From assembly GCA_943359525.1 (NCBI GenBank), contig CALRHV010000007.1, positions 1 to 45,548 on the forward strand: a stretch of DNA of 45,548 bases, given 5' to 3'. The notes under the pieces are model-generated. The model ran no database searches. It had not been told where the DNA came from and worked only from the letters and a program-made list of their open reading frames with translations. Both the position numbers and the translations under genes were made by a program. The first letter of the stretch is position 1. Each line of letters begins with the position of its first letter. This document shows positions 14,344 to 38,608 of the stretch, piece by piece. The DNA is from Candidatus Uhrbacteria bacterium (GTDB lineage: Bacteria > Patescibacteriota > Patescibacteriia > UBA9934).

Positions 14344-15453
14344 ATGCGGATCGCGATTGTTACTCCAGTCTATCCGCCATATCGCGGCGGCATTGGTACA
14401 GTTGCAGATCATGATGCGCGATGTCTTCGCGCGCTCGGAGCAACGGTTGATGTGTTTACACCGGCACACAACGTTCTTTCAAAAGCCGAAGCGGGAGTTG
14501 CTCGCTTACAACCTTTTTACGCTTGGGGGAACGGCGCCGTGTTGCTGACCCTCATTTCGAAACTTCGCGGGTACGACGTTGTTCATTTGCACTATCCTTT
14601 TTTTGGCAGCGACGTTCTTGCGGCATTTGCGGCGAAGCTTTGGAATATTCCACTCGTTGTCACATATCACATGAAACCGAGGGCATCGGGAATTCTTGGA
14701 CTTACGTTCCGAACGTATCGATTCGTTCTTGAGCCATTCATTTTCCGGTCAGCACGATTGTTGCTGGTGAGCTCGAAGGAATACGCGCAAGAACACGGCG
14801 TTCACCATAGGAACATGGAGGCATTGCCATTTGGTATTGATACTGAGCGTTTTATTCCTGGCGATCGTTTCGCTGCTCGCCGATCGTTCGGCCTGCACGA
14901 AGACGTTCCGACGATTCTCTTTGTTGGCGGGCTTGATCGCGCACATTACTTTAAAGGAGTCGATGTGCTCCTTTCTGCGTGCGCGGCCATGACGACATCG
15001 TGGCAGCTGTTGATTGTCGGCGACGGGAACAATCGAAGATCATTCGAGAAGCTTGCAGCCGATCTTGGAATCACCGATCGCGTTCACTTTGCGGGATCGG
15101 TTCTATTCGAAGATTTACCAAGAGCGTATCAGTCCGCTGATGTGCACGTGTTGTCATCCATCGATCGTTCAGAAGCATTTGGGCTCGTCACGCTCGAGGC
15201 GATGTCAAGCGGCGTGCCAAGTATTGTTTCTGATCTGCCCGGCGTCCGGTCGTTGATTGTTCCCAACGAGACAGGAATGTGTGTTCCGCCAACAGATTCG
15301 GTGTCGTTGGCAGCGGCACTCGACCGATTCTGCGGAGATGAAGATTTCGCTAGGCATTGCGGAGAACGCGCGAGAATCCGTGCCTGTACACTGTATGATG
15401 AGAGAATTCTTGCGAAGCGGCTCGTTGAGGTATACAACACATGCATCGTATGA
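14344..15453 (+). CDS. GT4 glycosyltransferase
   Basis: MRIAIVTPVYPPYRGGIGTVADHDARCLRALGATVDVFTP; SEAFGLVTLEAMSSGVPSIVSDLPG. Confidence 0.92.
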   Translation: MRIAIVTPVYPPYRGGIGTVADHDARCLRALGATVDVFTPAHNVLSKAEAGVARLQPFYAWGNGAVLLTLISKLRGYDVVHLHYPFFGSDVLAAFAAKLWNIPLVVTYHMKPRASGILGLTFRTYRFVLEPFIFRSARLLLVSSKEYAQEHGVHHRNMEALPFGIDTERFIPGDRFAARRSFGLHEDVPTILFVGGLDRAHYFKGVDVLLSACAAMTTSWQLLIVGDGNNRRSFEKLAADLGITDRVHFAGSVLFEDLPRAYQSADVHVLSSIDRSEAFGLVTLEAMSSGVPSIVSDLPGVRSLIVPNETGMCVPPTDSVSLAAALDRFCGDEDFARHCGERARIRACTLYDERILAKRLVEVYNTCIV

Positions 15454-33022: not shown

Positions 33023-33167
33023 GGAGAAAGTATAGCAGAATCGGCGCGTTGGTTCGACGGTTCGTTGTGTGATAGGATGAAAGTAATCCCATGTGCACGT
33101 TGTTTATCCACGTGGCCTTGAGGCGAGGGAGGGATCGCCCAGGTAGTCTGCGTAAAGCATATATTTT

Positions 33168-33491
33168 ATGCTCGATAAGAAAGATATTCAGTTTCTGGAA
33201 AAGATGTTCGCGAAGGTCACTGAAAATATGGTAACCAAGGACATGCTTCGCGACGCGCTTCACGAGAACAATGAAATTTTCGGTCATCAGTTGAGGCGCG
33301 AAATGCGTGATGAAATTCATGCCGTGGTGAACGGAGCCGTTTTTGCATCGGAAAAACGCCTTACAAAGCTCATCATGGATACAAAAGAAGAAATTCTCGA
33401 CGGCGTGGCCGATATCATTGGCAACGAAATCATTCCCCAAATCGACGATCTCGAAGTCCGGACCCTTCGATTAGAACACCGAGTTGCGTAG
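33168..33491 (+). CDS. Small coiled-coil protein, paralog of 38285-38608
   Basis: 107 aa; shares RDEIHAVVNGAVFASEKR-type block with the 38285 ORF. Confidence 0.7.
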   Translation: MLDKKDIQFLEKMFAKVTENMVTKDMLRDALHENNEIFGHQLRREMRDEIHAVVNGAVFASEKRLTKLIMDTKEEILDGVADIIGNEIIPQIDDLEVRTLRLEHRVA

Positions 33492-33519
33492 ATTCCATTG
33501 AAAACATCGCTAATATTCG

Positions 33520-33540
33520 CCGAAAAGCTTGACTTTTCGG
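33520..33540 (+). promoter_or_regulatory. Hairpin overlapping the -35 of the DGR target promoter
   Basis: CCGAAAAG-CTTGA-CTTTTCGG. Confidence 0.6.
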
Positions 33541-33557
33541 CCATTTTTTGCTATAGT
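33529..33557 (+). promoter_or_regulatory. Sigma70-type promoter of the DGR target gene
   Basis: TTGACT-17 nt-TATAGT. Confidence 0.75.
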
Positions 33558-33602
33558 GTAGTGGTGACTTCACTGCATTCTTCCCCCTCCCCGGAGCCTT
33601 CA

Positions 33603-34109
33603 ATGGACCTTTCCACCGCCACTTCCCTCGTTGTCGACCTGTTCTCCGATACCAGCCTTTACGGCATCAACAAGCGGGAGAAGCTCCTGGCGCTCCTCGC
33701 CGAGAAGCCCCCGATCGGCGGCGTCATCGTGCGTCTGCTGACGCTTGATCCCAAGTTCGACTACGTGAACCCCAACATCATCGACGCGAACTTCCCAACC
33801 ACCGTGGAGCCATCCCTCGAGGGAGCTCGGCTCGACAAGATGGTCGGTTCCCGTGAGTCCATCCTCGCGCAGCTCAAGCAGGACAACCGTCGCGCGGCCA
33901 ACGCGGCAGAGCTTCTTCTCTACGGGGTGAAGAATCCCGAAGAGCAGAGGAAGTACTGGATCTGGGCTCTGGCTCAGGTCTGGGTTGGTCCCGACGATCG
34001 TCACGGGTACGCAGTCGTGCTGGGCGTGAGCGGCGGCGAGCGGGTCGCGCGCCTCAACGATGTCGCGGGCGTGAGTGCCTACGATCGCATCCTCTCCTTC
34101 CCGCTGTAG
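33603..34109 (+). CDS. DGR target (variable) protein
   Basis: C-terminal 134 nt is the VR; protein ends WVGPDDRHGYAVVLGVSGGERVARLNDVAGVSAYDRILSFPL; start at MDLSTATSL within ORF 33498..34109. Confidence 0.88.
   Translation: MDLSTATSLVVDLFSDTSLYGINKREKLLALLAEKPPIGGVIVRLLTLDPKFDYVNPNIIDANFPTTVEPSLEGARLDKMVGSRESILAQLKQDNRRAANAAELLLYGVKNPEEQRKYWIWALAQVWVGPDDRHGYAVVLGVSGGERVARLNDVAGVSAYDRILSFPL
33976..34109 (+). repeat. DGR variable repeat (VR)
   Basis: Ungapped 134-nt match to TR; 16 of 16 mismatches before the 3' conserved block are at TR adenines. Confidence 0.95.
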
Positions 34110-34121
34110 AGTTCGGCGCTT

Positions 34122-34164
34122 GGAACCTTGGGTTCTCGGCGCTGGTGCTCAAACCCTTGGTTCC
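34122..34164 (+). other. Stem-loop/cruciform just downstream of VR
   Basis: GGAACCttGGGTT (34122-34134) / AACCCttGGTTCC (34152-34164), 12 nt after VR. Confidence 0.6.
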
Positions 34165-34169
34165 TACGG

Positions 34170-34200
34170 CCGGGCCTGTCTCACGAAGACGGGCCCGGTT
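34170..34200 (+). terminator. Terminator of the DGR target gene
   Basis: CCGGGCCTGTCT-CACGA-AGACGGGCCCGG then TTT. Confidence 0.8.
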
Positions 34201-34456
34201 TCGCGTTTGATATACTTCTTTTTGGAAAGTAGATGCGAAGGCTTGCGGCTACGGCTTCGAGCGATCGAAATCTGGAAATGATGGAATATGCCAGAAGGCG
34301 TCTTTGCACTGCGAAGCGTCGTGCGCTGTCGTCAATTTCCCAAAACATGAACTCTATTGGTGCAACAATTGGTGAGAGCACGGGCTCCAAAATATATTCA
34401 GCCCGAAGGACTGACGACGGGTGGTGGTATGGATGGTTGTTACACGCATTGGTAGG

Positions 34457-34590
34457 AGGTCTGGGTTAATCCCGACGATCGTCACGAGTACGCAGTCGTG
34501 CTGAACGTGAACGACGGCAAGCGGAACGCGAACCTCAACGATGTCGCGAACGTGAATGCCAACGATCGCATCCTCTCCTTCCCGCAACAG
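34457..34590 (+). repeat. DGR template repeat (TR)
   Basis: A-rich at variable codons (AAC/AAT) relative to VR; not in an ORF in the VR frame. Confidence 0.95.
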
Positions 34591-34600
34591 GGTTTATGAT

Positions 34601-34629
34601 CATTCCTGGCGAGAATATCGTCAGGAATG
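34601..34629. terminator. Strong hairpin 3' of TR and at the avd stop codon
   Basis: CATTCCTGGCGA-GAATA-TCGTCAGGAATG. Confidence 0.65.
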
Positions 34630-34950
34630 TTCTTTTACGAAGGCTATCCATCCTCCGAGCGCTTTTCCAACTTCGATGAGTGGAGCAGAGAGGGAATGGT
34701 ATTTCTTTGTGTCAATGAATTTGAGCTCCCAGGCCGTGGTGATAAAGAACTTCAAAGCATCAAATTTTACGCTCGTTTGCCGCAGGATGAGAAGCTTTTC
34801 ATTTCTGGGGCTGTAGGCCGCGAGAAAGATGCCTTCAAGAACATCACAAAAAAGCAGATCAATTTTTGTGCCGAGGGTATATCGCGAAACCCTTGGAAAG
34901 TTTATGAGAATGCCTTGCCAAGATTGATAAAGACTATTGAGTGTATGCAA
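34621..34950 (-). CDS. avd: Avd-like DGR accessory protein (four-helix bundle), antisense to TR-RT
   Basis: LYQSWQGILINFPRVSRYTLGTKIDLLF...AAYSPRNEKLLILRQTSVKFDALKFFITTAWELKFIDTKKYHSLSAPLIEVGKALGGWIAFVKE; start uncertain because of a G10 tract. Confidence 0.85.
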   Translation of the reverse strand: MHTLNSLYQSWQGILINFPRVSRYTLGTKIDLLFCDVLEGIFLAAYSPRNEKLLILRQTSVKFDALKFFITTAWELKFIDTKKYHSLSAPLIEVGKALGGWIAFVKEHS

Positions 34951-36004
34951 GATCGGAGCATCAGTGCGGACGTTTTCGGGGGGGGGGATTCATAAAAGAA
35001 GGGTTTTTGATTTGAAATTTGAGAATGTTGTGTCGATGGAGAATTTGCTCGCAGCGTGGGAAGAATTTTTCGCAGGGAAACGAAAGAAGCCAGACGTTTT
35101 AAAGTTTAAAGAAGACCTTCTCATAAATATTCGCTTGCTTCACAACGATCTCGTCGCCCATCGATATGAACACGGATCATATTACCATTTCGTCGTGAAG
35201 GATCCGAAACGACGTGATATTCATAAGGCTTCGGTGCGCGATCGACTATTACATCACGCGATCCATCGAAAGCTGTACCCGTTGTTCGATCGTATTTTCG
35301 TTGCCGATTCATTTTCTTGTAGAATCGGAAAAGGAACGCACAATGCGATGAATCGATTTCGTGTGATGCATCGAAACGTGAGTCAGAATAATACAAAAAC
35401 ATGCCGGGTACTGAAACTTGATATTCGAAAGTTTTTCGCGAGTATTGATCACGATATTCTGTTGTCGCTTTTGTATAATTGGATTCCAGATCTCGAATTA
35501 ATGTGGCTGTTTGAACGAATTATTTCGTCATTTTCAGCGCTCGACTCTCAAAGAGGCCTTCCTCTTGGGAATCTTACGTCGCAACTGTTTGCGAATGTGT
35601 ATTTGCACGAACTTGACGCGTTTGTGAAGTATCAACTTAGGGCAAAGAACTATATTCGATATGCGGATGATTTCGTTCTACTCTCGTCGTCACAAGAAGA
35701 ATTGAAAAAGTATCTTGACGCGATTCGAACAGTTCTCGCTGATCAGCTTCGCCTCACACTTCACCCCAAGAAAATCGAACTGCGAACAATTTCGTCCGGG
35801 GTCGACTTTTTGGGATGGATTCACTTTCCATCGCATCGTATTTTGCGAACGTCGACGAAAAACCGAATGATTCGTCGGCATCGGACAGATCTCAGTGAGC
35901 ACGTGCATTTCTCGTATTTAGGAATGGTCGGTCATGGAAATACGCATGAACTCCAGATCGCGCTTGCGAATGAGTATTGGCTCTTTGGAGAGAAGGATTT
36001 TTAA
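34937..36004 (+). CDS. DGR-type reverse transcriptase
   Basis: IRYADDFVLL catalytic motif, LPLGNLTSQLFANVYLHELD (DGR-type LGxxxSQ), GKGTHNAMNRF; true start uncertain (35012 or 35036 possible). Confidence 0.95.
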   Translation: MSVCKIGASVRTFSGGGIHKRRVFDLKFENVVSMENLLAAWEEFFAGKRKKPDVLKFKEDLLINIRLLHNDLVAHRYEHGSYYHFVVKDPKRRDIHKASVRDRLLHHAIHRKLYPLFDRIFVADSFSCRIGKGTHNAMNRFRVMHRNVSQNNTKTCRVLKLDIRKFFASIDHDILLSLLYNWIPDLELMWLFERIISSFSALDSQRGLPLGNLTSQLFANVYLHELDAFVKYQLRAKNYIRYADDFVLLSSSQEELKKYLDAIRTVLADQLRLTLHPKKIELRTISSGVDFLGWIHFPSHRILRTSTKNRMIRRHRTDLSEHVHFSYLGMVGHGNTHELQIALANEYWLFGEKDF

Positions 36005-38284: not shown

Positions 38285-38608
38285 ATGCTCAACAAAAATG
38301 ATGTGACAATGCTTCGTGGGATGTTTGTGGAAGTTCTCGATGATCGGGATGTTCAGTGGAAAGCCGATCTTGATCAGCGATTTCATGATTTTAAACACGA
38401 AATTCGCGATGAAATTCATTCAGTTGTGAACGGAGCTGTTTCGGCTTCAGAAGCCCGAATGATGAATCGAATGGATGGCTCGCTCGAGCGAGTGAAGGTT
38501 GAAATCATCGATGCGATTGGAGAGATCCTTGATGAATCAGTCCTCCCGCAGATTTCGGATCTTCAAGTGGACATGCGACGAGTAAAGAATCATCTCCAAA
38601 TGGCCTAA
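38285..38608 (+). CDS. Small coiled-coil protein, paralog of 33168-33491
   Basis: IRDEIHSVVNGAVSASEARM block shared with the 33168 ORF. Confidence 0.7.
   Translation: MLNKNDVTMLRGMFVEVLDDRDVQWKADLDQRFHDFKHEIRDEIHSVVNGAVSASEARMMNRMDGSLERVKVEIIDAIGEILDESVLPQISDLQVDMRRVKNHLQMA

Follow-up and report, generated by a model that had tools for sequence, protein, structure and literature searches.

A predicted phase-variation switch in the avd gene of a diversity-generating retroelement from Candidatus Uhrbacteria

Organization of the retroelement

Does this Candidatus Uhrbacteria genome carry a complete diversity-generating retroelement (DGR), as an earlier note made from the DNA letters had claimed, and what sets the locus apart from others of its class? 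The window, that is, the whole stretch of 45,548 nucleotides that was analyzed (contig CALRHV010000007.1, here C7), contains all of the parts which had been named: a target gene with a C-terminal VR, a TR, an Avd-like gene and a reverse transcriptase (RT) with the motifs LGNLTSQ and YADD (Table 1). The locus is confirmed as a real DGR of the ordinary working type. "Complete" holds with regard to the parts but not to the reading frame of avd, which is broken in the assembly at a G10 tract by a reversible frame-shift. The target - TR - antisense avd - RT order, which had been called unusual, is the norm of the clade: avd was antisense to RT in 136 of the 136 loci of Patescibacteria (CPR) in which it was found. 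The special feature of the locus is the frame-switching tract, located in avd or, in other genomes, in RT.

Table 1. Features of the DGR locus, in window coordinates
Feature	Position	Strand	Basis or remark
Promoter-like site, 5' of target	33529..33557	+	TTGACT-17-TATAGT, extended TG; consensus scan
Target gene (168 aa); putative C-type-lectin-like domain with VR at the C-terminus	33603..34109	+	ORF, AlphaFold, Foldseek
VR, final target codons	33976..34106	+	Repeat comparison (direct repeat runs to 34113)
Inverted repeat directly 3' of VR, candidate hairpin/cruciform for DGR homing	34122..34164	+	DNA fold
GC-rich hairpin, probable target terminator	34166..34206	+	DNA fold
TR	34457..34588	+	Repeat comparison (direct repeat runs to 34594); like the TR/VR pair on contig C13
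avd (accessory variability determinant), antisense to RT	34621..34993	-	ATG 34993; frame broken at tract
Predicted phase-variation switch: G10, read as C10 on the avd strand	34978..34987	+	
DGR RT, start TTG 35012 or ATG 35036	35012..36004	+	LGNLTSQ, YADD, RVT_1

The VR and TR form a direct repeat of 138 nt with 86% identity (33976-34113 and 34457-34594, offset 481), the TR being located downstream of the VR. TR adenines account for 18 of the 20 mismatches over the full repeat (14 A>G, 3 A>T, 1 A>C); the other two lie within or directly 3' of the target stop codon. Within 33976-34104, 16 of 16 mismatches were at TR adenines. In 122 related loci, 2065 of 2181 VR/TR differences were confined to adenines, in a search which favours adenine mismatches.

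Based on its motifs and its best match among solved structures, the RT is of the DGR type. It matched RVT_1 in Pfam (E 1e-24), and the best structural match was PDB 8ub7 ("Reverse transcriptase", E 4e-42), which we take to be the BPP-1 DGR RT, as against approximately 1e-16 for group II intron RTs; a closer affinity to group II intron or retron RTs, the outcome held beforehand to count against a DGR, was not observed. A search of IMG/VR contigs with the RT revealed no relative. The Avd product matched bAvd of Pfam with an E value of 6e-11, over the gathering score, and DivGenRetAVD of NCBIfam with 5e-17, under the cut-off of that model. The target start is most likely ATG 33603 rather than TTG 33498. 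Its AlphaFold model had a mean pLDDT of 86, and the 50 Foldseek matches shown were all to C-type lectin or NK-receptor lectin-like domains, although weak (E approximately 0.04 or worse); the modelled protein may well be a standard DGR target of the C-type-lectin-like kind. A novel target fold was considered and found no support, the model being lectin-like on these weak matches.

The count of promoter-like sites in the region was not above that in shuffled sequences, and the site upstream of the target is suggestive at most. The stretch 34100-34215, which contains the two hairpins of Table 1, gave a DNA fold z of -4.1; homing of the BPP-1 DGR requires an inverted repeat after the VR (PMC3240598). 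The stretch before the TR (34225-34460) was conserved at 70-83% in six of six compared DGR loci of the genus and is probably part of the TR RNA; an Rfam search of the window gave no match.

The repeat tract in avd

The 5' end of avd reads ATG AAT followed by ten C. With 10 C the product is a 10-codon peptide, while tracts of 9 C and 12 C give proteins of 123 and 124 aa, respectively. As assembled, the gene has no in-frame start codon before the poly-C tract, and on contig C7 the Avd frame runs into a stop just before it.

A second DGR was identified on contig C13 with the same order as on C7, namely a small coiled-coil-like gene, target, TR, antisense avd and RT. Its RT is 65% and its target 35% identical to those of the window, and its TR/VR differences are likewise at adenines. 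The avd tract on C13, at 14882-14890, consists of nine C and is also out of frame, a full-length Avd requiring 8 or 11. The 864,550-base genome holds three G/C runs of at least 9, two of which are at the two avd genes. The third (L088, G000:C10:14459-14468) is intergenic and lies near a HigA-like gene. By a hand tally over 23 genomes of the family, approximately 21 of 45 G/C tracts of at least 9 were located at DGR avd or RT genes. Other phase-variable gene families were also sought and dropped: the remaining poly-C tracts of the family lacked avd or RT, and by eye they belonged to no recurring family.

Two further elements are associated with these loci. A 110-bp leader, 92% identical between 33060-33180 and C13:16708-16816 (minus strand), occurs within the genome at the two DGR loci only, 5' of the small coiled-coil-like gene, and is also present at L048 and L049; it is possibly a structured RNA or a cassette boundary. 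Five small coiled-coil-like genes (33168-33491, 38285-38608 and one each on contigs C13, C12 and C3) form one family for which Pfam gave no match above cut-off, and members sit upstream of both DGRs.

Distribution of tracts among Patescibacteria

RT searches gave matches in 85 genomes from 193 relatives and in 116 genomes from 380 of the phylum, and 145 CPR DGR loci were examined. These loci are related to one another and the counts are not independent. A simple repeat was found in 120 of the 145, at the 5' end of avd in 96 and inside RT in 24, with no locus carrying both. The units were G8-13 (mostly G9-13), GA, CT, TG and CAAT; within the avd-RT span they were mononucleotides, dinucleotides (21) or a tetranucleotide (1), and no tri- or hexanucleotide unit was found there. 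Beyond that span very few simple repeats were present in the CPR loci. Outside CPR, 18 DGRs carried on phages or plasmids of other bacteria were examined, and none had a tract.

Of 85 loci sampled in order of score, 62 had the tract in avd, one had it in RT and 22 had none, and among the 20 top-scoring loci of the phylum 18 had the avd tract. The second site, inside RT, was predicted from split RT matches, and G9-12, GA7-10, CT16 and AG8 tracts were found there, mostly with a frame-shift. Because 40 loci (two sets of 20) were chosen mainly for a broken RT match, the share of RT tracts should not be read as a prevalence, and their ON/OFF ratio is biased. Twenty-two of the 24 RT tracts lie near motif 4 and two near the C-terminus. 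The latter, G10 and G9 in L150 (G007:C21) and L151 (G007:C23), represent a third tract site.

The tract differs in unit or length between loci with the same flanks (L074/L078, L066/L098 and L132/L141), the flank-conserved pairs showing (CAAT)7 against G12 at 92% identity, GA20 against GA18, and G10 against G12. On the RT tree the tract changed its location 22 times and its unit 30 times, which is fewer than after shuffling, yet many; tract type is therefore inherited and also replaced.

Because avd and RT have head-to-head starts, separated by 18 bp in this locus, the tract also falls a short way 5' of where RT begins. The poly-G could then serve as a spacer of the RT promoter, as in Neisseria porA, tuning RT transcription, with its place in avd being incidental, and by eye TAnnnT was seen directly 3' of the G run in several loci. 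We regard this as very unlikely: 24 loci have their tract within the coding sequence of RT, the CT and GA tracts at the avd site reach 40 nt and are too long for -35/-10 spacing, and a promoter scan gave no site at the tract. In addition, the avd frame could be followed upstream to the tract without a stop in 94 of 95 loci, compared to 44 and 36 for the other two frames. The N-terminal peptide MxQLxFH of avd was left out as coding evidence because the N-terminus of RT, which overlaps it, is by eye its complement.

Frame states and selection

As assembled, with one assembly per species and draft homopolymer lengths that may err by one, avd was in frame (ON) in 32 and out of frame (OFF) in 63 of the loci with an avd tract. 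Among tract-less loci 13 of 14 were ON (Fisher p 3e-5 against tract loci, seven loci with C6-7 only, mixed ON and OFF, being left out of the test). Avd bodies were intact in 91 of 95 tract loci and in 60 of the 63 OFF loci, and a comparison of the avd genes of C13 and L047, both OFF, gave pS 0.17 and pN 0.00. At the sequence level the OFF genes are thus intact and under purifying selection. The VRs of OFF loci were diversified to the same extent as those of ON loci.

These results bear on whether the frame-shifts are assembly errors or the mark of DGRs in decay. The genomes are draft MAGs, in which homopolymer frame-shifts are a common error. Tracts at the same sites in genomes of many families, including GA, CT, TG and CAAT units, argue against both possibilities, as do the intact Avd bodies, pN far below pS and diversified VRs, and we consider this reading scarcely credible.

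A further explanation for genes that are mostly out of frame but remain intact under purifying selection is programmed slippage, during transcription or on the ribosome, at a tract of fixed length, with Avd or RT made constantly at a low level and no genetic switching. In the genus of the window, five loci in which the sole usable ATG precedes the tract (C7, C13 and L046-L048) are all OFF by the same single base, a pattern that another start or slippage in these loci could explain. Over the wider set the offsets fell into the three frames in the numbers 27/40/28, as expected for random phase, and roughly a third of the avd loci are already in frame. Moreover, the tract site also accommodates dinucleotide and tetranucleotide repeats, 14-40 nt long, and its unit and length vary among relatives. 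Fixed slippage is accordingly judged improbable, to about the degree of a promoter spacer.

Translation of Avd might instead begin at a later TTG or GTG, which would make the tract irrelevant. In the window a TTG is present at 34950, and in 38 of the 63 OFF loci an in-frame GTG or TTG lies between the tract and the Avd domain, where it might give rise to a truncated Avd. In 22 OFF loci, however, no ATG, GTG or TTG occurs in this interval, and a later start leaves the RT tracts, the mutual exclusion of avd and RT tracts, the non-triplet units and the absence of tracts from the non-CPR DGRs unexplained. This alternative is highly improbable.

Proposed mechanism and significance

The reading which very probably applies is that of a DGR of ordinary working type whose activity is gated by a contingency tract, by slipped-strand phase variation in CPR. 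RT and Avd would copy the TR RNA with adenine errors, and the copy would replace the VR at the end of the lectin-like target. The ten-C tract after the avd start codon would gain or lose units in replication, Avd being translated at n = 9 or 12 and cut off at about ten codons at n = 10. Since Avd is required for DGR homing, cells would switch randomly between a diversifying and a locked state. In the reconstituted BPP-1 DGR, inactivation of Avd or RT left background activity, both being essential (PMC12875486). In other Patescibacteria the switch would lie at the same avd site with other units, or in RT just before motif 4. Neither MutS nor MutL domains turned up in the 21 genomes searched, this one and 20 relatives, while 11 of 14 control genomes were positive, and therefore short repeats should slip often. 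The anatomy, the tract position, the frame states, the recurrence over the phylum and the purifying selection on OFF genes are observed; we infer that lengths of the tract differ among cells of one population and that they control mutagenesis.

It is likely, although with somewhat less confidence, that the Patescibacteria have combined a contingency switch with a DGR, such that the hypermutator is ON in a minority of cells, which explore, and OFF in the rest, which keep a binder that works. On this view the switch would have arisen repeatedly, in two genes of the element, and stochastic gating of DGRs would have been selected across the phylum.

The literature search revealed no report of a DGR with a slipped-strand, homopolymer or phase-variation switch, and earlier mention in CPR DGR surveys is possible. 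The 2026 reconstitution paper termed natural DGR regulation an exciting frontier (PMC12875486), while a 2012 survey set contingency loci against DGRs as alternatives and noted recently frame-shifted RTs (PMC3521204). If the proposal is true, a contingency locus controls a hypermutator, and a large share of CPR DGRs carries a switch which can be read from DNA, the tract length telling whether a cell can diversify or not; the question could then be tested in existing metagenomes. In the part of the survey by Roux et al. that treats them, Patescibacteria DGRs (clade 2) are described as having significantly lower activity (PMC8144416), and the switch could help to account for this. Automated annotation may label such avd and RT genes as missing or as pseudogenes.

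Comparison with known systems

The locus shares with the DGR of Bordetella phage BPP-1 (mtd/avd/TR/brt) the RT, Avd, adenine-only TR/VR changes and a hairpin after the VR, and the target may likewise be C-type-lectin-like. It differs in the antisense, head-to-head orientation of avd relative to RT, in a TR that precedes avd, and in the frame-switching repeat that avd carries. The 18 non-CPR DGRs have no repeat, and their avd, where annotated, is on the RT strand. With DGR clade 2 (Roux et al. 2021, PMC8144416), to which the window DGR is assigned by host phylum rather than by RT tree position, it shares the Patescibacteria host and, as far as the clade is treated in that part of the survey, short cellular targets without known domains. 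Accessory genes and repeat tracts, both present here, are not mentioned in the same part of that account.

The closest parallel to the tract is found outside the DGRs. In the phase-variable genes of Neisseria, Haemophilus and Campylobacter, slippery repeats flip expression on and off at random. The features common to those contingency loci and the CPR tracts are mono-, di- and tetranucleotide non-triplet repeats near the 5' end or within the gene, and random ON/OFF frames. Here too the tract is in coding sequence with a non-triplet unit, unit and length vary on conserved flanks, and ON and OFF frames both occur in a gene under purifying selection. Two differences stand out: the hosts have no detected mismatch-repair genes, and the gene switched is the engine of a diversity generator instead of a surface structure or a methyltransferase.
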